DNA of 64,000 nucleotides from Lichenibacterium minor (lineage in GTDB: Bacteria > Pseudomonadota > Alphaproteobacteria > Rhizobiales > Beijerinckiaceae): assembly GCF_004137685.1 (NCBI RefSeq), contig NZ_QYBB01000005.1, forward strand, positions 1-64,000. Reading direction: 5' to 3'. The position numbers were made by a program, and so were the translations under genes. Within the stretch, counting starts at the first letter, position 1. The number at the start of each line of letters is the position of its first letter. This document shows positions 122 through 57,164 of this stretch, one piece after another. Under the pieces are notes generated by a model. That model had not been told where the DNA came from. It saw nothing but the letters and a program-made list of their open reading frames with translations, and made no database searches.

Positions 122-490
122 TCAGAACAGGCGGCCGCCGTTCGGGACCGCGCGGGTCGGCACGGCCAGGACCACCTCGCCGTCGGCGTCCGGCAGGCCG
201 AGGGTGAGCACCTCGGACATGAAGGGCCCGATCTGCCGCGGTTCGAAGTTCACGACGGCACAGACCTGCCGGCCGACGAGGCCGGCCGGGTCGTAATGCC
301 GCGTGATCTGCGCCGAGGACGTCTTGCGGCCGATCTCCGGCCCGAAGTCGATGACGAGCTTGATGGCGGGCTTGCGCGCGTCCGGGAAGGGATCGGCCTT
401 CACCACCGTGCCGACGCGCACGTCGATGCGGCGGAAATCGTCGAAAGCGGCGACCGCCGCGACCGGCTCGGGGCCGGACCCGCCGATCAG
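122..490 (-). CDS. csaA: CsaA-like tRNA-binding-domain protein (probable CTG start)
   Basis: About 122 residues forming one EMAP/tRNA-binding OB fold, the size of CsaA. Seen: the conserved opening FDDFRRIDVRVGTVV, the KPAIKLVIDFG strand, SSAQIT, then VCAVVNFEPRQIGPFMSEVLTLG, as in CsaA dimers. The family is described as an export-related chaperone or tRNA-binding protein; the role here is inferred. No ATG, GTG or TTG lies in frame between the conserved N-terminus and far inside the upstream gene. The best-placed start is a CTG at 488-490 whose TG is shared with the TGA of the TetR-like gene (487-489), giving a CTGA overlap like the usual ATGA coupling. The family call is strong; the exact start is the weak point. 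Confidence 0.85.
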   Translation of the reverse strand: MIGGSGPEPVAAVAAFDDFRRIDVRVGTVVKADPFPDARKPAIKLVIDFGPEIGRKTSSAQITRHYDPAGLVGRQVCAVVNFEPRQIGPFMSEVLTLGLPDADGEVVLAVPTRAVPNGGRLF

Positions 491-5073: not shown

Positions 5074-6387
5074 CTAGACCGGCACGCGCACCGTCGCGCG
5101 AAGCCCGCCCAGGGGACTCTCGCTGAGCTGGATGTCGCCGCCGTGCGAGCGTGCGATGTCGCGCGCGATGGCGAGGCCGAGCCCCGTGCCGCCCTGGTCC
5201 TGGTTGCGCGCGGGGTCCAGGCGGAAGAAGGGGCGGAACACGTCTTCCCGCTTGTCGGCCGGGATGCCCGGCCCGTCGTCGTCGACGTGGACGGTGAAGA
5301 AGCGGTCGTCGCGCCGCGCCACGATCTCGATCCTGTTCCCGTAGCGCCCGGCATTGCCGACGAGGTTGGCGAGGCAGCGCTTGAAGCTGTCCGGCCGCAC
5401 GATCACCCCCGTTTCGCCCGTGACGGCGATGCCCGTGGCGTGGCCGTGGCGCTCGGCATCCGAGCGGAGCTCCTCGAGCAGGGCCCGCATGTCCATCATC
5501 ACGGAGGTTTCGCCGGCGTCCCCCCGCGCGAAAGCGAGGTAGGCTTCGAGCATGCGCCCCATCTCGTCGATGTCGCGGTGCATGGCTTCCGCGTCCGGCC
5601 CGTCGTCGAAGAGTTCGAGGCTGAGCTTGAAGCGCGTCAGCACGGTCCTGAGGTCGTGGCTGACGCCGTTCAGCATGGTGGTGCGCTGTTCCACGGCGCG
5701 CTCGATGCGCCGCCGCATCTCCAGGAAGGCGTAGCCCGCCCGGCGCACTTCCGTGGCGCCGTTGGGCCGGTATTCGATGAGGCGGCCCTTGCCGAGGTTC
5801 TCGGCCGCGATGGCGAGCCGCAGGATCGGGCGGATCTGATTGCGCAGGAAGGCCGTGGCCACGATGATCAGCACCGCCGAGGTGCCCACCATCCACAGGA
5901 TGAAGATGTAGGAGTTCGACGCGTAGGCGGCCGAGCGCCGCGCGATGACGCGCAGCACCGCGGTGTCGAGCTGGATGCGGATCTCGATGAAGTTCGAGCG
6001 CCCCACCGTGTCGATCCAGAACGGCAGGCCGACCTGCTTGCGGATCTCGCCCGACAGCGAACGGTCGAGGAGCTGAAGGAAGGGCTTCGGCAGCGCCGGC
6101 GGCAGGGGCTGGGGCGGCAGGAAGTCGATGTCGAGCCCGAGCCGGTTCGACGCGATGCGCTCCAGGGCTTCCGTGCCCTCGCCGGCCGGCAGGGCGCGGT
6201 ACAGGTCGATGGTGGCGGCGACGTCCTGCACCAGCGCCTGGCTGAGGCGAAACGTCACCGACTGCCAGTGCCGCTCCAGGAAGAAGTAGCTCATCACGCA
6301 CTGCAGCAGCAGCATCGGCACGATGAGGATCAGCAGCGCGCGGGAATAGAGCCGCTTCGGCAGGGCGTCGGCGACGGCGCGCATCAC
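5074..6387 (-). CDS. EnvZ-like sensor histidine kinase
   Basis: About 437 residues: TM1 (16-36), a periplasmic sensor (37-158), TM2 (159-180), HAMP (181-232), then HisKA with H244 in GVSHDLRTVL, an N box CLANLVGNAGRYG, and G boxes DDDGPGIP and GGTGLGLAIARD. This is the EnvZ/OmpR class, and the OmpR-type regulator lies directly upstream. GTG at 6387 immediately followed by ATG serves as start. The frame stays open upstream with an Ala/Pro-rich reading, but no ATG, GTG or TTG is there. The inducing signal cannot be read from sequence. Confidence 0.92.
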   Translation of the reverse strand: MMRAVADALPKRLYSRALLILIVPMLLLQCVMSYFFLERHWQSVTFRLSQALVQDVAATIDLYRALPAGEGTEALERIASNRLGLDIDFLPPQPLPPALPKPFLQLLDRSLSGEIRKQVGLPFWIDTVGRSNFIEIRIQLDTAVLRVIARRSAAYASNSYIFILWMVGTSAVLIIVATAFLRNQIRPILRLAIAAENLGKGRLIEYRPNGATEVRRAGYAFLEMRRRIERAVEQRTTMLNGVSHDLRTVLTRFKLSLELFDDGPDAEAMHRDIDEMGRMLEAYLAFARGDAGETSVMMDMRALLEELRSDAERHGHATGIAVTGETGVIVRPDSFKRCLANLVGNAGRYGNRIEIVARRDDRFFTVHVDDDGPGIPADKREDVFRPFFRLDPARNQDQGGTGLGLAIARDIARSHGGDIQLSESPLGGLRATVRVPV

Positions 6388-6508
6388 GCGGAAGCCCCAG
6401 CGGCGGCGCCCCCGCGCGGCGCCGGCCGGGGTCGGCGAAGCGGGGGCGGCTTCCGGGGCGGGAGCGGTCGGCGCCGCGTCCCCGTCCGAGAAGCGAGCGG
6501 CCGTCAGG

Positions 6509-7237
6509 TCACGGATCGAGGAGGAGGCGATAGCCGAGCCCTCTCACGGTCTGGAGGTAGGCGGGGTTGGCGGGGTCGCTCTCGATCTTGCGCCGCAGCC
6601 GGTTGACCTGGACGTCCACCGTGCGCTCGTTGCCGCCTTCGGCTGCGGCGAGCCCCGCCAACTCCTCGCGCGACACCGTGGCGCCGGCGGCCGAGCTGAG
6701 CAGGCACAGCATGTCGCGCTCGCGCTCGGTGATGCGGATCGGCTCGTCGCCCTGGCGCAACTCGCCGCGCTCGGGATGGAAGGCGAAGGGCCCGAAGCGC
6801 GCCACGCCGTCCGGCTTCGGCGCGCGGGGCGCGGCGCGGCGCAGGATGGAGGCGATGCGCAGCAGCAGCTCGCGCGGCTCGTAGGGCTTGGCGAGATAGT
6901 CGTCCGCCCCCGCTTCGAGCCCGCGCACGCGGTCGTCGGCCCCGTCGAGCGCGGTGAGCATCAGGATCGGCACTTCGGACGTGCGCCGCACGTCGGCGGC
7001 GAAATCCACGCCCGTCTCACCCGGCATCATCACGTCGAGGATCAGCAGGTCGAAGGCGAGCGAGCGCAGGTGCCCCCGCGCTTCGGCGGCCGTGGCGGCC
7101 AGGGTCACGCGGTAGCCGTTCTTGCCGAGCACGCGCGACAGCAGTTCGCGGATGCGCCGGTCGTCGTCGACCAGGAGGAGGTGGGCGGCGTCGTCCGCCA
7201 GCGGCGCCGGGCGCTCGTCGAGGGAAGCGCCGTTCAC
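6509..7237 (-). CDS. OmpR-family response regulator
   Basis: 242 residues: receiver domain with acidic D24-D26, phosphoacceptor D68 (LLILDVMMPG), T95 and K117; then a winged-helix DNA-binding domain (about 143-240) with the VDVQVNRLRRKIE recognition region. The GTG start overlaps the upstream MarR stop by four bases (GTGA), and the cognate kinase follows. This puts all three genes in one operon. Regulators of this subclass commonly pair with EnvZ-like kinases to adjust envelope or stress genes; targets here are unknown. Confidence 0.93.
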   Translation of the reverse strand: MNGASLDERPAPLADDAAHLLLVDDDRRIRELLSRVLGKNGYRVTLAATAAEARGHLRSLAFDLLILDVMMPGETGVDFAADVRRTSEVPILMLTALDGADDRVRGLEAGADDYLAKPYEPRELLLRIASILRRAAPRAPKPDGVARFGPFAFHPERGELRQGDEPIRITERERDMLCLLSSAAGATVSREELAGLAAAEGGNERTVDVQVNRLRRKIESDPANPAYLQTVRGLGYRLLLDP

Positions 7238-12725: not shown

Positions 12726-13610
12726 ATGTCGACCTTCGAGGAGCCCACCATGCAGCACCATCCCGCCATCGCCCCCGGCCGCACCGCCGTCGTCACGGGC
12801 GGCGCCAGCGGCATCGGCCTCGCGGCCGGCAAGCGGTTCGCGTCGCTCGGCCTCAACGTCGTGCTGGCCGACCTCGCCGGCGACGCCCTCGACGCCGCGC
12901 GCGCCGCGGTGATGATGGCGGCGTCGGCCGCGGGGGCGACGGATCCGTCGGCGGCGGTGCGCGCCGTGCCCACCGACGTGGGCCGCATGGACGACATGCG
13001 CGTCCTGAAGGAGACCGCCTACGAGGCCTTCGGCGACGTGGCGGTGCTGATGAACAACGCGGCCATCAGCCCCGTCGGCAAGCCGTGGGACGCCTACGGC
13101 GACTGGCAGCGGCTGCTGGCCACCAACCTGTGGGGCGTCATCAACGGCGTGCAGGCCTTCGCGCCGGCTTTGTTGGAGGCCGGCAAGCCCGCCGCCATCG
13201 TCAACACGGGCTCGAAGCAGGGCATCACCACGCCGCCCGGCAATGCCGCCTACAACGTCAGCAAGGCGGGCGTGAAGGCCTTCACCGAGGCCACCGCCTA
13301 CGAGCTGCGGGAAACGCCGAACTGCGCCGTGACGGCACACCTGCTCATCCCCGGTTTCACCTTCACGGGCCTGACCAACGCGTCCGAGAAGCCCGCCGCG
13401 GCCTGGACGGCCGAGCAGGTCGTCGCCTTCATGCTCGACGCCATGGCGAGCGGCGACTTCTACATCCTGTGCCCCGACAACGATGTCGATCGCGCCACCG
13501 ACGAGAAGCGCATGGCCTGGGCCATGGGCGACGTGATCGAGAACCGCCCGGCCCTGTCGCGCTGGCACCCGGATTTCAAGGACGCCTTCGCGCGTCACAT
13601 GGCCGGCTGA
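12726..13610 (+). CDS. SDR family NAD(P)-dependent oxidoreductase
   Basis: 294 residues, classical short-chain dehydrogenase. Cofactor motif TGGASGIG (24-31), D49 near the end of beta-2 (favouring NAD), NNA at 110-112, catalytic S163, Y176 and K180 (YNVSK). The C-terminal WHPDFKDAFARHMAG tail is not part of the core fold. Substrate unknown. Divergent from the PHB-depolymerase-type esterase, with which it may be co-regulated; a 3-hydroxyacid role is conceivable but not shown. Confidence 0.88.
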   Translation: MSTFEEPTMQHHPAIAPGRTAVVTGGASGIGLAAGKRFASLGLNVVLADLAGDALDAARAAVMMAASAAGATDPSAAVRAVPTDVGRMDDMRVLKETAYEAFGDVAVLMNNAAISPVGKPWDAYGDWQRLLATNLWGVINGVQAFAPALLEAGKPAAIVNTGSKQGITTPPGNAAYNVSKAGVKAFTEATAYELRETPNCAVTAHLLIPGFTFTGLTNASEKPAAAWTAEQVVAFMLDAMASGDFYILCPDNDVDRATDEKRMAWAMGDVIENRPALSRWHPDFKDAFARHMAG

Positions 13611-27984: not shown

Positions 27985-28104
27985 TTCGCTGACGCCGGCG
28001 CCGCGGCGCCGGCCCCTCCGCTTCCCATCCCCGGCCGCCCGGCCGCGCATGTGCCTCCGCGCCGCGCGAACGCCGTCGCTCGCGCCGTCTTCAGGACATC
28101 CATC

Positions 28105-28857
28105 ATGGTCGGACGCTTGATCCTGCGAGGCCTGCTCTGCGGGCTGGTCGCCGGCCTCCTCGCCTTCGGTTTCGCGCGGCTGTTCGGCGAACCCCTCGTC
28201 GAGCGGGCCATCGCTTTCGAGACCGCGATGGACCAGGCCAAGGGCGAAGCCCCCGAACACGAGGTCGTCAGCCGCGAAACCCAGGCGGGCCTGGGCCTGC
28301 TCACGGGCACGGTCGTGGTCGGCACGGCGCTGGGCGGCCTGTTCGCCCTCGCCTTCGCCCTCCTGCACGGGCGCCTGGGCTCGTCGAACGCCCGCGAAAC
28401 GGCGGCGCTGTTGGCCCTGGCGGGCTTCGTGGTCCTGGCCGTCGTGCCGTTGATCAAATACCCCGCGAACCCGCCCTCGATCGGCGATCCCGACACCATC
28501 GGCCTGCGCACGGCGCTGTATTTCGAACTGATCGCCCTTTCGCTCGCCGCGGGCGCGCTGGGGACGGCGTTGGCGCGTCTCCTGGCGTCCGCCCGGGGCG
28601 TGTTCGACGCCAACCTGGCCGGCATCGCGCTCTTCGCCGCGCTGGTCGCCGCCGCCTTGTGGTTCATGCCGGCGGTCGACGAAGTGCCGGAGCACTTCTC
28701 GGCGGTGCTGCTGTGGCAGTTCCGCATGACGGCGCTGGGCATTCAGGCCGTTATTTGGAGCACGATCGGCCTGGGATTTGGAACGTTCGCACATCGCTTG
28801 CTGGAGAACATTCCCTTGGGAGATGCCCCGGTCCGAACGGCGACGGCGGCGCGCTGA
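28105..28857 (+). CDS. cbtA: Cobalt transporter subunit CbtA
   Basis: 250 residues with five or so membrane segments. The family features GLVAGLLAFGFARLFGEP, the polar loop with E/H residues (APEHEVVSRETQAG), and FMPAVDEVPEHFSAVLLWQFR are all present. Partner of CbtB in predicted cobalt import, under the upstream cobalamin riboswitch. AGGACA precedes the ATG at 28105. It ends against the convergent TadG gene, separated by two hairpins. Confidence 0.95.
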   Translation: MVGRLILRGLLCGLVAGLLAFGFARLFGEPLVERAIAFETAMDQAKGEAPEHEVVSRETQAGLGLLTGTVVVGTALGGLFALAFALLHGRLGSSNARETAALLALAGFVVLAVVPLIKYPANPPSIGDPDTIGLRTALYFELIALSLAAGALGTALARLLASARGVFDANLAGIALFAALVAAALWFMPAVDEVPEHFSAVLLWQFRMTALGIQAVIWSTIGLGFGTFAHRLLENIPLGDAPVRTATAAR

Positions 28858-28891
28858 CAGCGTCGAAGCGCTGTGCATCACTGACTGATGC
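28857..28891. terminator. Two back-to-back hairpins between cbtA and tadG
   Basis: ACAGCG/CGCTGT (28857-28874) and GCATCA/TGATGC (28875-28891) form consecutive 6-bp stems between convergent stops. The second includes the tadG stop codon. Probably a shared transcript end. Confidence 0.45.
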
Positions 28892-30659
28892 GCAATGCTC
28901 CGATGCTGGCTGCGATCTGACCAAACGCTGCGATAAGGCTGTTCGAGTCGTTGGCTATGAAGGCTTGGCTGCTCGATGTTGCGCAATTCTTCAGCAGCGT
29001 TACACCCTGGCTGTCGATCGGATCCGATGGCACGCTGAACCCTATGGTGTAGATCGACACGCCAGCCGTCTTGGCGTTCGTGCATGTTTCGAGCGTTAAT
29101 TCGTCCAAAGCGTTCCTTTGTTGCGCGGTGGTCGAAATGCTGGAGATCGTCTGGTAACTGGTCGGCATCGTGGGAGTCGGGTCGCTGCCATCCGCGTTGG
29201 TTAGGTACCCGTGCGAGAAGTAGAGAGTTTGATTGTAGTTCGTGTACGGATTGTCCGGCCAACTGTTGGTGCCGTCTGTCATCAAGATGATGACCTTGGT
29301 GGTGGCGGTCGAACTAGTCGAATTCGCGGGGGAGTAGGCCGCACCGTCAGCGAAGACGCTGAGTGGTGACAGGGTGCGCCAACCCCACAGGATACCGTCG
29401 TGGATGTTAGTCGATCCCGCTGCCGTCAGGCTGTTGATCAGCGCCTTCAACGTCGTCCCGCTGGTGGTAAGCCGCTGCAACGGCTTGCTGACGCACTGGA
29501 AGTTGGGCCCATTTGGCAAGCCTGTGTACTGATTGTACGCCGTTGATTGAGCGCCGCTTGCGTTATAGTATTTGCAAGCTTGCTTCTCGACGGTGGCGAA
29601 GCTCGTCGCTGAGTTTGAGCAGGAATTAAATCCGTTGGAGTCGTTAATGTAACTGTTGAAGCTGTAGTTAGTAGCGGCATTTGAATTATTGTTGCTTGGG
29701 TTCCACGCGGCGTAGCCTGTCGACCCGCTGCCCGGCTCATCTGGGGCAAAGAGCGGTACATAGAGCGAGTTGAAGCCAGCCTGCGTAGACGCGCTGCTCG
29801 GTGCTCCATCCTGCACGCTTTCCGGATAAGGCTGTGCCTCAAAACATCCTGCCCATCCCCAGCTTGAGTTGACGAGCTTTAGGGCGTTGAAGATCGACAA
29901 GCGGCTCGTGAAGCCGAGGGCGCGTGCAGAGGACTGGTCGACGTTAGTCCAGTGGTAGGCCGACAGGCCCTTGGTGTCGACCCAACTCGCCGTCGCGGTT
30001 CCTGACACGACGGGGTCGATCGCCACAGCGGCCGCGAAAGGCACGATGGAGATGCGGCTCGACGACGAAAAAGCGCCGTTGGTCTGAACGTAGTCGACGA
30101 AGTTCGATGCCGCTTGCTGCACGGCCTGCAGCTTGGTCTGCGAGCCGCTCGACTCCGACATCGAGCCCGTGTTGTCGAGCACCATGGCGATCTCGAACGT
30201 TTTGGGCAGTGGCGTCGCGCATTGCGAGGAGGCGGATACGAGGGGGGAGCTCACGCCGGTGAACCTAGGGAAGAAAGTCTTGGAATTGATATGCGTCGTC
30301 AAAGTGATCTTGCGCGGATTGCTGGTAATGCCCAGCGCGTCGACAATCACGCCCGAGGTTTTGCCCATGTAGTCCAGCGACAGTGTACTCGCCTGCGCCT
30401 GCAGCACCACATTCGTAGTGCTCAGGGGCGTCTGGCAGAGGGCGAGAGCAGTGGCGTCGGCAGAGGCCTGGAGCTTGGCCTGCATACGGGTAGCCATACC
30501 GTAGTCGATCGCAGCGCCTGTGAAGGCCAGCAACGGCAGGCTCGCCAGAGCAAAGGTAATGGCGACGTTGCCGCCCTTCGACCCCGCGAAACGAGAGAGC
30601 GATCCAGCCCAGGTCATCGTCGCGTTCCGATCGTCGGAGGAAGGAGGAAAGCCAAACAT
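28878..30659 (-). CDS. TadG-like pilus-assembly protein with VWA domain
   Basis: About 593 residues. N-terminal TadE/G segment GGNVAITFALASLPLLAFTGAAIDYGMA (membrane anchor), then a VWA domain with MIDAS DNTGS (D148 counted from the ATG at 30617) and a later LMTDGTN. A long Asn/Ser/Tyr-rich segment lies inside the VWA region (about 240-360). Surface or periplasmic, tied to Flp/Tad pili. Two starts: ATG at 30659 overlapping the tadE stop (TGATG), or ATG at 30617. GC content falls well below the window average. The core tad genes (tadA, rcpC, flp) are not here. Confidence 0.85.
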   Translation of the reverse strand: MFGFPPSSDDRNATMTWAGSLSRFAGSKGGNVAITFALASLPLLAFTGAAIDYGMATRMQAKLQASADATALALCQTPLSTTNVVLQAQASTLSLDYMGKTSGVIVDALGITSNPRKITLTTHINSKTFFPRFTGVSSPLVSASSQCATPLPKTFEIAMVLDNTGSMSESSGSQTKLQAVQQAASNFVDYVQTNGAFSSSSRISIVPFAAAVAIDPVVSGTATASWVDTKGLSAYHWTNVDQSSARALGFTSRLSIFNALKLVNSSWGWAGCFEAQPYPESVQDGAPSSASTQAGFNSLYVPLFAPDEPGSGSTGYAAWNPSNNNSNAATNYSFNSYINDSNGFNSCSNSATSFATVEKQACKYYNASGAQSTAYNQYTGLPNGPNFQCVSKPLQRLTTSGTTLKALINSLTAAGSTNIHDGILWGWRTLSPLSVFADGAAYSPANSTSSTATTKVIILMTDGTNSWPDNPYTNYNQTLYFSHGYLTNADGSDPTPTMPTSYQTISSISTTAQQRNALDELTLETCTNAKTAGVSIYTIGFSVPSDPIDSQGVTLLKNCATSSSQAFIANDSNSLIAAFGQIAASIGALRISQ

Positions 30660-31309
30660 CAAGGGCAGGGCGCGCCGCCGGGCATCGTGACCTCCGGCGT
30701 GCTGGTCTTGCTGTTGTGGATGGCGCCGTTGCGGACGGGCCACGGAAAGACGCTGCTCACCGTAATGGTGCCGCTGCCGGTGGCGAATTTGACTAGCGAA
30801 GCGCCCACCATCGGCGAGTAGGGCATGGTGACCTCGGCAATGACGTATCGGTTGCCGTTGGTGTTGAAGCCGACCGGTATGGTGAGGTCGGACGCGATAC
30901 CTGTAACCCTGGCCTTGGCGTTGCTCGTGGCGATGCTCGAACACACGCGAGGGCTGGTCACCGACGCCGTGGTATCGACGCCGAGTGCGCTTACCACGAT
31001 CTTGACGTTGGCGGTGCCGAAGGGTCTCAGCACGGCCGACGACGCGCCCATGATGTCGGTCATCGTCGTCGATGCGATCGGGTCGCTCGAGTCCCCCTGC
31101 GAAGTGAGGTCCGCCACCGTGCGCCCGAGCAGGGTCACCTTTCTCCAATTGTCTATGGCATGAGCCATCTCGCTCATGCCGACCAGAAGCGTGAGCATGA
31201 CGGGCAGGACCAGGGCAAATTCCACGGCAGAGGCGCCGGCCGTGCTCCCCACGAAGGTCATCGCCGGGTGGGCTCGTCGACGCATTTCCACGAAGCTCAA
31301 TTCGGGCAT
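30659..31309 (-). CDS. TadE-family pilus protein (second)
   Basis: 216 residues. Membrane segment SAVEFALVLPVMLTLLVGMSEM (about 27-48) containing the TadE/TadF hallmark E after the hydrophobic lead, followed by a secreted domain with GRTVADLTSQ. Pseudopilin-like partner of Flp pili. Its start overlaps the upstream tadE stop by 13 bases; an ATG at 31285 is an alternative. Stop overlaps the tadG ATG (TGATG). Low GC like its neighbours. Confidence 0.82.
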   Translation of the reverse strand: MPELSFVEMRRRAHPAMTFVGSTAGASAVEFALVLPVMLTLLVGMSEMAHAIDNWRKVTLLGRTVADLTSQGDSSDPIASTTMTDIMGASSAVLRPFGTANVKIVVSALGVDTTASVTSPRVCSSIATSNAKARVTGIASDLTIPVGFNTNGNRYVIAEVTMPYSPMVGASLVKFATGSGTITVSSVFPWPVRNGAIHNSKTSTPEVTMPGGAPCP

Positions 31310-31914
31310 GGAGAGTTCTGAGACGAAGAATAGGGCTCCGTGCGGAAAACCGCCGTACTCTCGAGCAGGGTCGACCCATCGGCGAAGTTGGCGAGGCCTG
31401 CGTCGAGGAGACCGAAAAACACTGGAAACTTCACGGCCGCCGTGGCGATGACAATAGAGCCCGGGGCTGCGCAGGCATAATGCGTTCCGAAGCTCGATGA
31501 CCAGTTCCGGGTTGTCGGATCGATCGGCACGGCGGCCTTGCTCGAAGAAAAGTTGGTGCCGAGCGAGATGTCGATCTTGACGCCCGAGCAATTGAAGATC
31601 GTCACCGTTGCGGTGGTGCCCGATCCGCACATTTTCTTCTGCAGCGCTGCAAGGATGACAGATGGTTGAGCGGTCTGGTCGTTGTTCTGCTGGAACGATC
31701 CGGTAAACAGCGATCGCGTGGCCGTTTGAAAGACGAAGTCGAAATTCTGGGCAGCCCAGATCATGAATGCCAACTGGATGATGGCGCCCAGCAAGGCCAG
31801 GAAGGGCAGGGCGACCAGTCCGAACTCGACCGCGGTCGCGCCGCCCGCGTCGTCGAGGAGGCGCCGCAGGAGGGATGCGCGGGGCGAGGTGGGAGAGGCG
31901 GACACTGACATCAT
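31297..31914 (-). CDS. TadE-family pilus protein (first)
   Basis: 205 residues. Hydrophobic segment TAVEFGLVALPFLALLGAIIQLAFMIWA (about 27-54) with the conserved glutamate, then a secreted domain with two cysteines in the middle (CGSG, FNCSG) and an alanine/cysteine pair (HYACAAPG). First gene of the TadE-TadE-TadG unit, preceded by an AT-richer promoter region. Confidence 0.85.
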   Translation of the reverse strand: MMSVSASPTSPRASLLRRLLDDAGGATAVEFGLVALPFLALLGAIIQLAFMIWAAQNFDFVFQTATRSLFTGSFQQNNDQTAQPSVILAALQKKMCGSGTTATVTIFNCSGVKIDISLGTNFSSSKAAVPIDPTTRNWSSSFGTHYACAAPGSIVIATAAVKFPVFFGLLDAGLANFADGSTLLESTAVFRTEPYSSSQNSPCPN

Positions 31915-32123
31915 CGGGCTAAGGGCTTAGAATGTCACCGACCTTTGACGACGACCTCTTTCGAAATCGTTGTGAGCTGGAACGTCATGCAATATGGGAG
32001 GGTTTAAGGTAAAGGCACCGTGCCATGACGCCGGGAACGCCGCTTTGATAAGCTGTCCAGTCGTGAATGAATCCGTGGCCCCGTGGGGAGACCCGGGGAT
32101 CCTCGCAAGGTAATTCAAGTCCC

Positions 32124-52528: not shown

Positions 52529-53953
52529 TCAGGCGGCTTCCTTGCGGTCGCGCAGGAAGCGGAAGAACTCCACGCCCTCGCGCAGGCGGCGCTTCATCAT
52601 CTCCGGGCTGCGCACCATCTCGCCGACGATGGAGGCGATCTTCGGCGCGCGGAAATAGAAGCGCCGGTAGAAGTCCTCGACCGAGGTGAAGATTTCGGTG
52701 TGGTTGAGGTGCGGGTAGGACAGCGGCGCGATCTGGGTGCCGCCGGCGGTGAGCAGGTCCTGCCCCTCGTCGTAGAGCCAGCCGTTCTCCATCGCCTGCT
52801 TGTACAGGAAGGTGCCGGGGTAGGGGGCGGCCAGCGAGATCTGGATGGTGTGGGGGTTGATCTCCTTGGCGAAGTTGATCGTTTCCTCGATCGTTTCCTT
52901 GGTTTCACCCGGCAGGCCGAGGATGAAGGTGCCGTGGATCACGATGCCGAGCTCGTGGCAGTCCTTGGTGAAGCGGCGCGCCACGTCGGTGCGCAGGCCC
53001 TTCTTGATGTTGTGCAGGATCTGCTGGTTGCCGGACTCGTAGCCGACGAGGAGCAGGCGCAGCCCGTTGTCCTTCAGCACCTTGAGGGTGTCGCGCGGCA
53101 CGTTGGCCTTGGCGTTGCACGACCAGGTGATGCCGAGCTTGCCGATCTCCTTGGCCAGCGCTTCGATGCGGGGCAGGTTGTCGGTCAGCGTGTCGTCGTC
53201 GAAGAAGAACTCCTTGACCTCGGGGAAGGCGGCGCGGGCGTAGCGCAGCTCGTCCATCACGTGGCCGATGGAGCGGGTCCGGTAGTTGTGGCCGCCGACC
53301 GTCTGCGGCCACAGGCAGAAGGTGCAGCGGCTCTTGCAGCCGCGGCCCGTGTAGAACGACATGTAGGGGTGCTTGAGGTACCCGCCGAAGTAGTTCTCGA
53401 TCTGCAGGTCGCGCTTGTAGACGGGCGTGACGAAGGGCAGCTCGTCCATGTTCTCGAGGATGCGGCGGTCGGCGTTGCCGACGATCACGCCTTCCCGGTT
53501 CCGGTAGGTGATGCCGTCGATCTTGGACCAGTCGCGGCCGTCCGCCACTTCCTTGATGGTGAAGTCGAACTCTTCGCGCGCCACGAAGTCGAGCGCCGAG
53601 CAGGCTTCGAGGCTCTGCATCGGCTCCACGGCGACCTTGGCGCCGACGAGGCCGATCTTCAGGTCCGGCTTCAGGTCGCGCAGCATCTGCGCGGTCCTGA
53701 TGTCCGAATCGAAGGACGGCGTCGAGGTGTGCATCACGACCATGTCGTAATCCTTCACCTGGGGCGCGATGTCGGAGAACTTCAGCTTGTGCGGGGGCGC
53801 GTCGATCAGCTTCGAGTTCTCGACCAGCGCCGCCGGCTGGGCCAGCCAGGTCGGATACCAGAAGGACTTCACTTCGCGCTTCATCTGGTAGCGCGCGCCG
53901 GCGCCGCCGTCGTAGCCGTCGAAGGAGGGAGCCTGGAGGAACAGTGTGCGCAT
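52529..53953 (-). CDS. hpnJ: Hopanoid biosynthesis radical SAM protein HpnJ
   Basis: 474 residues. B12-binding-type N-terminal domain (about 1-150) and a radical SAM core with C206, C210 and C213 (GRGCKSRCTFC). In characterised hopanoid makers HpnJ converts the glucosamine head group to the cyclitol ether. The start ATG overlaps the hpnI stop as TGATG. The B12-binding-like domain links it to the cobalamin genes of this region. Confidence 0.95.
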   Translation of the reverse strand: MRTLFLQAPSFDGYDGGAGARYQMKREVKSFWYPTWLAQPAALVENSKLIDAPPHKLKFSDIAPQVKDYDMVVMHTSTPSFDSDIRTAQMLRDLKPDLKIGLVGAKVAVEPMQSLEACSALDFVAREEFDFTIKEVADGRDWSKIDGITYRNREGVIVGNADRRILENMDELPFVTPVYKRDLQIENYFGGYLKHPYMSFYTGRGCKSRCTFCLWPQTVGGHNYRTRSIGHVMDELRYARAAFPEVKEFFFDDDTLTDNLPRIEALAKEIGKLGITWSCNAKANVPRDTLKVLKDNGLRLLLVGYESGNQQILHNIKKGLRTDVARRFTKDCHELGIVIHGTFILGLPGETKETIEETINFAKEINPHTIQISLAAPYPGTFLYKQAMENGWLYDEGQDLLTAGGTQIAPLSYPHLNHTEIFTSVEDFYRRFYFRAPKIASIVGEMVRSPEMMKRRLREGVEFFRFLRDRKEAA

Positions 53954-55104
53954 CAAGAACCTGCTTTGTCGGGCGCCGTCATCGAACCGTCGGTCTGCAG
54001 GGCGAAGCGATGCCCGCGCCAATCGATCGATCCGGGCCAGAAGCCGAGGAGGAAGACCAGGAAAGCCGCGTAATCGCGGACGGGGCCGAGAATAAGGCCT
54101 TTCGTTCCCATCTTCAGCGCCCGGTTGACGATAATCTGGAGGAGTAGCCGGGATGTCACAGCGGCGGCCAGCATCGTCAGCGCGGCGGGCGCGAACCCGG
54201 CGGCCAGCACCGCCAGCGTCGCCACGGGGATCGGGTGGGTGACCACGGAGCCCACATACCCCGCGGGGTCGACCGAGCGGATGGTGCGCGACCAGCGCAG
54301 CTCCTGGCGCATCAGCGTGCCGAAGCTCGCCGCCGTGCAGGTGTGGCCGAGCACGAGGTCGCGCGGCACCACGACCGCGAGGCCCAGGGCCCGCACGGCT
54401 TCGCCCACCGCGTAATCGTCCGCGAGCCGGTCCTTGAAGGCGGTGAAGCCGCCGATGCGCTCCAGCGTGTCGCGGTGGAGCGCGATGGTGGAGCCGAAGC
54501 AGGGCTTGGCCAGGCCGAGCGCCATGCCGACCGCGACGTTGGGCAGGAAGTGGTGGTCGATCCACCCCACGGCCAGCCGCGACCAGATCCCCGGCACCGC
54601 GATCCCGCGGTAAAGGCAGGTCACGGCGCCGACGCCCGGCTGCGCCAGGGCGGCCACGACCCGGTCCAGGCAGTCCGGCTCGACCAGCATGTCGCTGTCG
54701 GCGAAGACCACCACGGGATGGCGCGCGCGCTCGGCCATGTTGGCGAGGTTCGACACCTTGCCGTTGGTGCCGTGGCGCCGCTCGTCGACGACGAGGCGGA
54801 TGTCGCGCGCGGGGAACTCCGCCTGCAGCCGCCGCACGGTCGCCACCGCGGGGTCGTCGGCGCGGGCGACGCCGAAGATCACCTCCACCGGCCCCGGATA
54901 GTCCTGCAGGCAGGCGGAGCGCAGGTTGCGGTGGAGGTCGGGCTCGTCGCCGTGGAGCGGCTTCAGCAGGCTGACGCCGGGCCGCGGCCCGGCGGCCCGG
55001 GGCGGCGCCGGGGTGCCGATGCCGCGCGTTACCAGCCCGGCGGCCAGCCAGGCGTAGAGGCAGCCCGCCCCCGCCAGGACGAGCAGGAGGAGGACGACGA
55101 TCAG
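53953..55104 (-). CDS. hpnI: Hopanoid biosynthesis glycosyltransferase HpnI (probable CTG start)
   Basis: About 383 residues: N-terminal membrane segment (3-20), GT2 domain with PGVSLLKPLHGDEPDLHRNL, ADSDMLVEPDCL (DxD), DRLADDYAVGEAVR and QELRWSRTIR, then membrane segments near the end. Transfers N-acetylglucosamine to bacteriohopanetetrol. No ATG, GTG or TTG gives the normal N-terminus; the CTG at 55102-55104 overlaps the hpnM TGA as CTGA and is preceded by AAGG, so a CTG start is proposed. Stop overlaps the hpnJ ATG. Confidence 0.92.
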   Translation of the reverse strand: MIVVLLLLVLAGAGCLYAWLAAGLVTRGIGTPAPPRAAGPRPGVSLLKPLHGDEPDLHRNLRSACLQDYPGPVEVIFGVARADDPAVATVRRLQAEFPARDIRLVVDERRHGTNGKVSNLANMAERARHPVVVFADSDMLVEPDCLDRVVAALAQPGVGAVTCLYRGIAVPGIWSRLAVGWIDHHFLPNVAVGMALGLAKPCFGSTIALHRDTLERIGGFTAFKDRLADDYAVGEAVRALGLAVVVPRDLVLGHTCTAASFGTLMRQELRWSRTIRSVDPAGYVGSVVTHPIPVATLAVLAAGFAPAALTMLAAAVTSRLLLQIIVNRALKMGTKGLILGPVRDYAAFLVFLLGFWPGSIDWRGHRFALQTDGSMTAPDKAGS

Positions 55105-55754
55105 AATGCCTTCATGTCCTTGTCGGTCTGGCTCTTCACGGCCGCCATCAGGCCGTCGAAGCCGGCGTCCTGGAAGGTCGAGCCGTATTCGGAGTGCCAG
55201 GTGGCGAGCTGCGAGATCGTGCCGTTGAGGTAGATGTCGACGACGTGCCAGTCGGTGCCCCGGCCGCGCAGCAGGAAGTTGATGTCCACCGGCGCGCCTT
55301 CGCCGTTGAAGCGCGACTTCACGAACTTGTCGGTGCCCCGCATCGCCACGTCGCCGTCCACCGCATAGGTTTCGCCCTTGAAGTCGTCGAAGGTGCTGGC
55401 GAAGGTGGCGGCCAGCAGCTTGCCGAAGCTGTCGCGCAAGGCCGACTGCTGGTCCGGCGTCAACTTGGCGAAGTCCGGCCCCACCGCGATCCGCGTCATG
55501 GCGGGAACGTCGAACAGCTTCACCATCACCGGGTACAGCCGGTCGTAGCGGCCCTGCATGTGCCACTCGCCCGCGTGGCGCATGGCGTCGAACAGGGCGT
55601 CGTAGAAATCCTGCACCACCAGCGCGGCCGGGTCGGCGGCGGGCTTGGCGGCGACGGCGGGCGCCGTCTGCGCGCCCGCGGGGGCGAGCGCCGGCCCGGC
55701 GGTCAGGAAGGCGGCCAGGGCGGCGCGTGCGCCCCATCGTGTCGCGTTCAGCAT
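55101..55754 (-). CDS. hpnM: Hopanoid-associated MlaC-like protein HpnM
   Basis: 217 residues. Signal peptide (about 1-28, ending AGA-QT), then an MlaC/Ttg2D-like domain: VQDFYDALFDAMRHAGEWHMQGRYDRLYPVMVKLFDVPAMTRIAVG and VAMRGTDKFVKSRFNGEG. Periplasmic lipid carrier type, predicted to move hopanoids. HpnN, the usual RND partner, is not in the window. Lies 31 bases after hpnL. Confidence 0.94.
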   Translation of the reverse strand: MLNATRWGARAALAAFLTAGPALAPAGAQTAPAVAAKPAADPAALVVQDFYDALFDAMRHAGEWHMQGRYDRLYPVMVKLFDVPAMTRIAVGPDFAKLTPDQQSALRDSFGKLLAATFASTFDDFKGETYAVDGDVAMRGTDKFVKSRFNGEGAPVDINFLLRGRGTDWHVVDIYLNGTISQLATWHSEYGSTFQDAGFDGLMAAVKSQTDKDMKAF

Positions 55755-55785: not shown

Positions 55786-56826
55786 TCACGGCCGGCGGAC
55801 CGCCGCGGGGGCGGGCCGCGCGCCGTCGTCGCCGGCCCCGAGCGCCCGCTCGGCGCCTCGTCGCACCAGAATGCGGCGGCTTTCCAGCCCCTGCCACACC
55901 AGCAGGCCGGGCAGGCCCAGCACCACCTCGGGGAAGCGCTTGGCGAGCGACAGCGCGATGGCGGCCGGCGCCGGGATGCCGAAGACGGCGCAGAGCGCGA
56001 CGAAACCGGCCTCCTGGACGCCGATGCCGCCCGGCACCACGAAGGCGGCCCCGCGCACCGCTTGGCCGAGGCTCTCCAGCACCAGAGCGGTGCCGTAGGG
56101 CACGGGGTGGCCCATGAAGCGCAGCGCCGTCCAGACTTCGAGCACGCCGAAGAACCAGATGGCGAAGTGGAGGGCGAACACGGCCGACAGCCGGCCACGG
56201 CGCCCGTAGAGCGCGAGGAGCTGGGCGTTGATGGCGTTGAGCCCGCCGCCGACCGCGGTCCATTGCGGGTCGTCGGTGAAGTGGCGCAGCACGCGGTCGA
56301 GCAGGCGCGCGCCGCCGAAGCGCTGTGCCGCGTAGAAGCCCGCGAGCGCCGGCCCGAGCAGGGCCAGCCCAAGGCCCACCCAGCGCGCGATCGCGCCGCC
56401 GCCCTCGTGGCCCGCGAGCAGCGCCACGCCGATTAACGTGAACACGAACTGCGTGGCGGTCTGCGCCAGGAGGTCGACCAGCACGGACGCGGCGGCGAGG
56501 CTTCGGGACACGCCCCAGAAGGTGATGAGCCGCGCGCCCACCACCTCGCCGCCGACCTGCGCCACCGGCAGCAGCGCGTTGACGGATTCGCGCACCCAGC
56601 GCAGCAGCAGGGTCGCCCGGAGCGTGCGCGCATTCTGCCGGTCGAGCAGCAGCCACCAGCACAGGCCCGCGCCGGCCGCCTCGCCCGCGCGCACGAGCGA
56701 CACGGGCACCACGCCCCAGCCCACCGCTTCGACCGCCTGCACGATCGGCTGCCAGCCGTAGAACCCCACGAGCGCGACCGCGGCCGCGACCCCCAAGGCG
56801 CTGGCGATGACGAAGGTGAGGCGCAT
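55786..56826 (-). CDS. hpnL: Hopanoid-associated membrane protein HpnL
   Basis: 346 residues with seven or so membrane segments, of the lysylphosphatidylglycerol synthetase-like (DUF2319) flippase-related family. Seen: ESVNALLPVAQVGGEVVGARLI and FVVPGGIGVQEAGFVALCAVFGIP, family hallmarks. First gene of the hpnL-M-I-J-K unit. Role in hopanoid handling is inferred from conserved linkage. Confidence 0.92.
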   Translation of the reverse strand: MRLTFVIASALGVAAAVALVGFYGWQPIVQAVEAVGWGVVPVSLVRAGEAAGAGLCWWLLLDRQNARTLRATLLLRWVRESVNALLPVAQVGGEVVGARLITFWGVSRSLAAASVLVDLLAQTATQFVFTLIGVALLAGHEGGGAIARWVGLGLALLGPALAGFYAAQRFGGARLLDRVLRHFTDDPQWTAVGGGLNAINAQLLALYGRRGRLSAVFALHFAIWFFGVLEVWTALRFMGHPVPYGTALVLESLGQAVRGAAFVVPGGIGVQEAGFVALCAVFGIPAPAAIALSLAKRFPEVVLGLPGLLVWQGLESRRILVRRGAERALGAGDDGARPAPAAVRRP

Positions 56827-57164
56827 GAGGTGGAGATCATCCCGGTGGAGGGCCGTCGCGCCCGTCCGACGCCCCGGCGCCGTCCGCGCCCTCCTTAACA
56901 TGACGCGGACCCATCCCGACAAGCCGGTTCTCGCCGCCGCGGAGGGGAACCCAACGCGGCTCCGGCAAGATCGGTTGCCTGCAGTTCGGATATTTTCGAG
57001 AAGCGTCAGGTCGAGGTCAAATACGGACGGACGGAAGGTGAGAATGTTCGGTTCGGCAGTAAGACGACGGCAACAGAAAGGCGCCTACAAAGCCCTGCGC
57101 CGGCCGGCGTTGTCGATCCAGAACGGCGGGTTGATCGTGAAGGTTGTGGTCTTTTTGAGGTCGT
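56827..57164. other. 338-base divergent intergenic region
   Basis: Between divergent hpnL and the chemoreceptor-linked gene. It becomes AT-richer from about 56985 on and probably holds the promoters for both sides. It contains one small frame (57044-57172) with a good ribosome site; otherwise I see nothing gene-like. Confidence 0.55.

Follow-up and report, generated by a model that had tools for sequence, protein, structure and literature searches.

The hpnM/hpnI junction

Where does translation of hpnI begin when the gene has no standard start codon (ATG, GTG or TTG throughout this work) at its N-terminus? The gene, which encodes a bacteriohopanetetrol glucosamine biosynthesis glycosyltransferase, occupies minus-strand positions 53953-55104 of the window analyzed here, the first 64 kb of a 201,933-base contig (C155) in a 5.9-Mb genome of the genus Lichenibacterium (G000). 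It is preceded on the same strand by hpnM (55101-55754; TIGR03481), whose ATG at 55754 was placed from the position of the 217-residue protein; a copy of HpnM without its 21 N-terminal residues reaches 150.4 bits against TIGR03481, for a cut-off of 160.1. It is followed by a radical SAM gene (PF04055; 52529-53953, minus strand), which from its position we take to be hpnJ and whose ATG at 53953 overlaps the hpnI TGA as TGATG. At the hpnM/hpnI junction the minus strand reads GACATGAAGGCATTCTGATCGTC. The junction sequence AAGGCATTCTGATC ends the hpnM frame with TTC TGA and is read as ATT CTG ATC in the hpnI frame, so that the HpnM C-terminus KDMKAF is followed by the TGA stop (55101-55103), and the hpnI frame continues from 55104 as CTG ATC GTC GTC. 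The candidate CTG start (55102-55104) and the hpnM stop have two bases, TG, in common, for a 4-nt gene overlap at 55101-55104, and the motif AAGG (55109-55112, minus strand), a possible short Shine-Dalgarno core, lies 4 nt ahead of the CTG.

The preliminary description had reported that hpnI lacks a standard start and carries instead an AAGG-preceded CTG sharing two bases with the hpnM stop, and this is confirmed: there is no ATG, GTG or TTG within the 59 codons examined upstream of the CTG, nor through codon +71 downstream. The first standard codon, at +72, falls inside the glycosyltransferase matches, the Pfam stretches of which start at residues 49, 53, 98 and 132. The hpnI frame stays open farther upstream, up to an ATG at 55737 inside hpnM, but over the 60 codons upstream of the CTG it scores as non-coding (-73, versus +47 for the hpnM frame), and the codon-usage model places the coding onset exactly at the CTG, at 55104. 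Read from there, HpnI matches TIGR03472 well above the curated cut-off (450.9 bits versus 310) and over nearly its full length (profile positions 3-371 of 373), with residue 2 aligned to position 3.

If the CTG is the start, hpnM and hpnI form a stop/start overlap (CTGA, 55104-55101). Since the overlapping codon is CTG and not the ATG of ATGA or TGATG pairs, we class it as a variant of such overlaps. The CTGA string is not improbable in itself, because in the DNA sampled from the genus C precedes 415 of the 755 uncoupled TGA stops; the oddity of hpnI is the absence of any other start, with no fitting standard codon from -59 to +71. On balance, hpnI probably starts at the stop-coupled CTG at 55104-55102.

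hpnI in related genomes

We compared the junction with five further genomes of the genus (G001-G005), of which G002 is Lichenibacterium ramalinae; only L031 was taken from the 36 loci that a scan of genome contigs returned. The hpnI frame is intact and 81-82% identical to its counterparts in two other species, and the hydrophobic stretch following the CTG is retained in G000, G002 and G001. CTGA is present at the overlap in all four genus genomes with hpnM directly upstream (G000, G002, G003 and G004). In L. ramalinae, hpnI reads CTG ACC and has no standard codon before a GTG at +19. The G004 and G003 genes carry an ATG at +6 and a GTG at +11, respectively, and may start at these codons. G005 also presents CTGA, together with a TTG nine codons upstream, in a frame that is open for just 35 codons upstream; no hpnM match was found in the 1.5-kb flank of its hpnI, which could start at this TTG. 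In G001 (L003, G001:C1:517299-521462), no hpnM was found in the hpnI flank, though it is present between the same neighbors in the window, and the gene before hpnI (ortholog of window 55786-56835) stops about 40 nt ahead of the coding onset. This hpnI has neither a nearby standard start nor a CTG suitably spaced from its GAGG, and an ATC behind the GAGG fits better than any CTG.

No hpnI ortholog among the genus loci compared was seen with a standard start at the CTG codon. Conservation of CTGA is by itself weak evidence, since its C occupies the wobble position of hpnM's final codon and is also the commonest background base before TGA. Outside the genus, HpnI loci were collected from 397 genomes of the order at E-values up to 1e-60, some of them below the curated cut-off, and in all 29 loci a standard start lies within about 15 codons either side of the corresponding place.

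A second overlap in the window

The preliminary description counted hpnI as the second CTGA case in the window. The other, a gene at 122-490 (minus strand) with a tRNA_bind domain (PF01588) that we take to be csaA-like, could also be verified. Its proposed CTG start (490-488) overlaps the TGA of the preceding gene, and the next standard codon lies at +23; no Shine-Dalgarno core from the list used occurs 4-11 nt before the CTG. At this same overlap the orthologs read CTG ATC in G000, CTG ATG in G002, TTG AGC in G001 and ATG AGT in G004, while G003 has a different start and G005 no match. G001 presents no other standard codon in the 59 codons upstream or the 43 downstream, and the overlap TTG is therefore its start. 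For the upstream gene, the difference between TTG and CTG is synonymous (CTT/CTC in its final codon). As a candidate CTG start, csaA is thus a stronger case than hpnI.

Genes without a standard start

To place these two genes in context, we screened 801,933 bases of G000, 380,000 of G001 and 400,000 of G002. As comparators, two GC-rich genomes contributed 400,000 bases each, G024 from the same family and G054 from the same order. A home-made gene caller returned 1281 genes above the score limit in the three Lichenibacterium species and 661 in the comparators. Genes in which no ATG, GTG or TTG occurs between the upstream limit and the 15th codon past the coding onset numbered 27 and 10, respectively, and their dependence on CTG was judged by unblinded inspection. 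Nine genus genes in eight families were kept as CTG-dependent: hpnI, csaA, telA, cls and a tRNA-editing domain gene in G000, a DUF1800 gene in G001, and hpnI, an aminotransferase (presumably cobC) and a GNAT-like gene in G002, the latter kept from its sequence alone, with no family search. None of the 661 comparator genes was kept, a standard codon 15-25 codons into each of the 10 comparator rows having been accepted without homology tests. The contrast between genus and comparators (P = 0.023) weakens to P = 0.08 when hpnI and csaA, preselected by the preliminary description, are removed.

The remaining 18 of the 27 genus rows were dropped before counting. A GTG/ATG at 6387/6384 fits for the histidine kinase gene in the window (5074-6531) and for its G002 ortholog. 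A standard codon 15-53 codons in was judged fitting for G000 genes on C107 (136153 and 213160) and C122 (8971, 13724, 52222, 117572 and 123302), and for G001 genes at 139349, 102821, 168055 and 86283. Also in G001, the row at 82401 resembled a kinase fragment by eye, an ABC ATPase was ambiguous, the glycosyltransferase at 563760 has orthologs with GTG TTG 14-15 codons in (G000) and ATG 17 codons in (G002), and hpnI, which has no clear start, was left out. The G001 kup gene was dropped because an upstream GTG with a good Shine-Dalgarno sequence is available, in a frame broken by an in-frame TAG. This TAG, between the GTG start and the conserved first helix (L081, G001:C1 ~509,700-509,780), may be a nonsense change, a sequence error or a site of re-initiation.

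Several further observations were made along the way. An additional, uncounted CTG candidate is found on the minus strand at G000:C107 346,298 and G002:C56 163,930, where CTGA at the coding onset is preceded by GGGAG at about 8 nt and a GTG 7-8 codons in has no such site. At window position 13607 (plus strand), CTGA also coincides with the coding onset of a protein without a Pfam match; a GTG lies 5 codons in, and neither codon has a Shine-Dalgarno core. The G002 aminotransferase is present in two copies, L116 (C56) and L122 (C13), the C13 copy with one in-frame TGA.

Ortholog comparisons

Codon-for-codon replacement of CTG by a standard start in a genus ortholog was found for csaA, cls and the tRNA-editing gene, and for telA over its first nine codons. 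The G000 cls gene (PLD domains) reads CTG CTG where G005 reads GTG TTG right after an in-frame stop; cls of G001 and G002 also reads CTG CTG, but with standard codons 19 and 11 codons upstream, respectively. In the G000 tRNA-editing gene (PF04073), CTG stands opposite a GTG in G002, GGGAG lies ahead of both, and there is no standard codon between an in-frame stop at -21 and codon +32. The G000 telA gene (PF05816) has its CTG in a CTGA overlap, in the context CTG AGC, opposite a GTG in G001; nine codons align before a two-codon indel, and no standard codon follows in G000 before +82. Stop coupling of telA is claimed for the G000 overlap only. In the remaining two cases examined the orthologs start elsewhere: the G001 DUF1800 gene presents GGAGG, 5 nt and CTG, with an in-frame TAA upstream, and in the G002 aminotransferase CTG is the sole NTG codon between an in-frame stop and the conserved region.

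An automatic tally of 244 ortholog pairs found a shared standard start in 187 (ATG/ATG 128, GTG/GTG 34, GTG/TTG 10, TTG/TTG 8 and ATG/GTG 7). When the same pairs were searched for a standard codon facing CTG, the 21 rows obtained held a single such codon (TTG/CTG, 16 codons before the anchor) and none of the counted CTG genes, due to anchors lying inside genes, the two-codon indel in telA, and several orthologs falling outside the samples. The ortholog evidence hence comes from the loci checked by hand, and on these alignments CTG is probably a real minor start in Lichenibacterium.

Stop overlaps and the wobble base

Five of the nine kept genes start in CTGA overlaps, and four (cls, the tRNA-editing gene, DUF1800 and the aminotransferase) are uncoupled, so CTG starts are not specific to stop coupling. 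Among genes with a single standard candidate, 66 starts lie at NTGA overlaps and 325 do not; with the CTG genes included, CTG accounts for 5 of 71 starts at NTGA overlaps versus 4 of 329 elsewhere (P = 0.011), a contrast that falls to 2 versus 4 (P = 0.27) without the preselected hpnI and csaA. The enrichment of CTG at CTGA overlaps is therefore only suggestive. The preliminary description had proposed that stop-coupled CTG initiation is used in this lineage, to be checked through a genome-wide count of CTGA overlaps. The use of CTG is well supported by the TTG, ATG and GTG codons found opposite it in orthologs, whereas specificity for stop coupling is not borne out, and the count, made here on samples (801,933 bases of G000), shows the enrichment only with the preselected genes included. 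As a putative minor start of Lichenibacterium, CTG is accordingly better supported than any special tie to stop overlaps.

The excess of non-ATG starts at NTGA overlaps is firmer than the preference for CTG. Non-ATG codons make up 33 of 66 single-candidate starts at NTGA in the genus versus 79 of 313 elsewhere, TGATG excluded (P = 9e-5); the comparators show the same tendency (14 of 39 versus 26 of 200, P = 0.001). At such overlaps, the wobble position of the upstream gene's final codon supplies the first base of the start, which is the likely origin of CTGA. Of the 1282 stops sampled from the genus, 1139 are TGA. Uncoupled TGA stops (755) are preceded 415 times by C, 243 times by G, 55 times by T and 42 times by A. 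By comparison, the first base of the 58 overlap starts without an alternative is A in 26, G in 23, C in 5 and T in 4, the five C being hpnI twice, csaA, the GNAT-like gene and a glycosyltransferase otherwise dropped as ambiguous; telA is outside the 58, its onset having been called 11 codons later. Once this wobble background is corrected for, GTG is accepted at about 0.15, TTG at about 0.12 and CTG at about 0.02 of the rate of ATG, from small counts (26 A, 23 G, 4 T and 5 C). CTG is the most frequent product of wobble pressure at overlaps, and it is strongly avoided as an overlap start, yet not excluded.

A broader proposition, which we advance tentatively and regard as possible but rather doubtful, is that in GC-rich bacteria codon-usage pressure pushes ATGA towards GTGA and CTGA, which re-initiating ribosomes tolerate, so that some tens of Lichenibacterium genes per genome would start at CTG and start-codon choice within operons would be set largely by the neighboring gene.

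Alternative readings of the hpnI start

The hpnI CTG might be used through de novo ribosome binding, hpnM termination being irrelevant. The uncoupled CTG genes (cls, tRNA-editing, DUF1800 and aminotransferase) and the AAGG ahead of the hpnI CTG are in keeping with this, but AAGG at 4-nt spacing is a weak site, the G000 csaA CTG lacks any listed core, and non-ATG starts are concentrated at NTGA overlaps in all sampled genomes, which leaves de novo binding improbable. We likewise give little credence to a start at the neighboring ATC or ATT (GGC ATT CTG ATC). Although the ATC lies 7 nt behind AAGG, the second codon of csaA is also ATC in G000 and is ATG in L. ramalinae, and G001 hpnI carries an ATC behind its GAGG, other CTG genes have no ATC there, the second codon being ACC in L. 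ramalinae hpnI and AGC in telA, and in csaA of G001 and G004 the standard codon (TTG and ATG) occupies the overlap position itself, followed by AGC and AGT. ATT has worked as a leadered start in mycobacteria (PMC4633059); in hpnI, it stands only 1 nt behind AAGG and is replaced by CAT, GAT and GTT in G004, G003 and G005, respectively.

HpnI could also be made from a distant standard codon, within hpnM or at +72, or hpnI could be decaying. The in-frame ATG at 55737, the standard codons from +72 onwards and the GTG at +19 in L. ramalinae would allow the former, but the frame upstream of the CTG is non-coding and a start at +72 would leave HpnI without its hydrophobic N-terminus and without part of the glycosyltransferase domain; decay, for its part, sits poorly with an intact frame conserved at 81-82% identity in two other species. 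Both are, in our judgment, unlikely. A -1 frameshift before the hpnM stop, generating an HpnM-HpnI fusion, accords with the hpnI frame being -1 relative to hpnM and open through the stop. Yet the same event would have to be invoked for csaA, telA and the uncoupled genes, and GCATTCTGA is not among the usual slippery heptamers, making a frameshift highly improbable.

Mechanism and relation to known systems

Under the preferred reading, in which hpnI starts at the stop-coupled CTG, ribosomes or 30S subunits ending hpnM at the overlapping TGA would remain on the mRNA, perhaps helped by the AAGG just upstream, and re-initiate on the hpnI CTG by means of the initiator tRNA, giving a protein with an N-terminal Met. 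CTG would be tolerated as a minor Lichenibacterium start with or without stop coupling, and strong GC bias would drive the shared wobble base of stop overlaps to C or G. Re-initiation in Escherichia coli employs formylated initiator tRNA together with IF2, and an excess of IF3 inhibits it (PMC2268962). CUG initiation complexes are less stable than AUG, GUG and UUG ones (PMC11497404), a CUG in Caulobacter dnaA is seen by toeprint and unused in vivo (PMC8443254), and a mycobacterial selection showed no enrichment of CTG among leadered starts (PMC4633059).

We interpret the hpnI case as a variant of two known phenomena, CTG initiation and overlapping stop and start codons. As in the termination-reinitiation overlaps (ATGA, TGATG) described by Huber et al. 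2019 (PMC6728339), same-strand neighbors share a 4-nt stop/start overlap and a short Shine-Dalgarno-like sequence precedes the junction; unlike those, the proposed hpnI start has C as its first base, and its coupling is proposed here from sequence. The strings CTGA, GTGA, TTGA and NTGA are absent from the main text of that paper, and no description of CTGA-coupled starts was found in the open-licence literature searched. As in CTG initiation elsewhere, represented by TetRP in E. coli (PMC4909307) and CUG complexes in vitro (PMC11497404), the CTG would be read by initiator tRNA. The E. coli study lists six CTG codons among newly analyzed start sites, three with signal at both the old and the new site (PMC4909307). 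In contrast to these E. coli and in vitro cases, several Lichenibacterium genes have no nearby standard alternative, and orthologs switch between CTG and standard codons.

The initiator tRNA variant M1 is also reported to lower discrimination against CUG in vitro (PMC11497404). Like M1, the G000 initiator tRNA departs from three G-C anticodon-stem pairs; in M1 the middle pair is flipped, whereas in G000 (arm AGG-CTCATAA-CCT) the first pair is A-U. A first initiator-tRNA pattern had no match in 6 genomes, and a wider arm pattern matched 42 of 60 genomes in the order sample, 41 of them with the A-U form, which consequently neither singles out nor explains the genus. The 18 unmatched genomes include G001, G003, G004 and G005, whose initiator tRNAs may differ in the anticodon arm; G000 and G002 were matched. 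ARAGORN called the G000 and G024 loci as Met tRNA and did not call the G002 locus.

Implications and an additional observation

If CTG is accepted as a start, it would serve about 0.8% of genes, scaling to some 37 per genome (from the 5 kept among 632 genes that 801,933 bases of G000 yielded to the screen), and gene finders restricted to ATG, GTG and TTG would misplace or truncate such proteins; for hpnI, a call of this kind loses the hydrophobic N-terminus. A hopanoid gene and several unrelated genes in a lichen-associated lineage appear to begin with the rarely used CTG, and the sharing of a codon with the neighbor's wobble base offers a testable reason for the frequency of non-ATG stop-coupled starts. 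Elsewhere in the window, the segment at 28001-32000 has a GC content of 62%, versus about 72% around it, and two of its genes match TadE/TadG-type pilus-assembly families.
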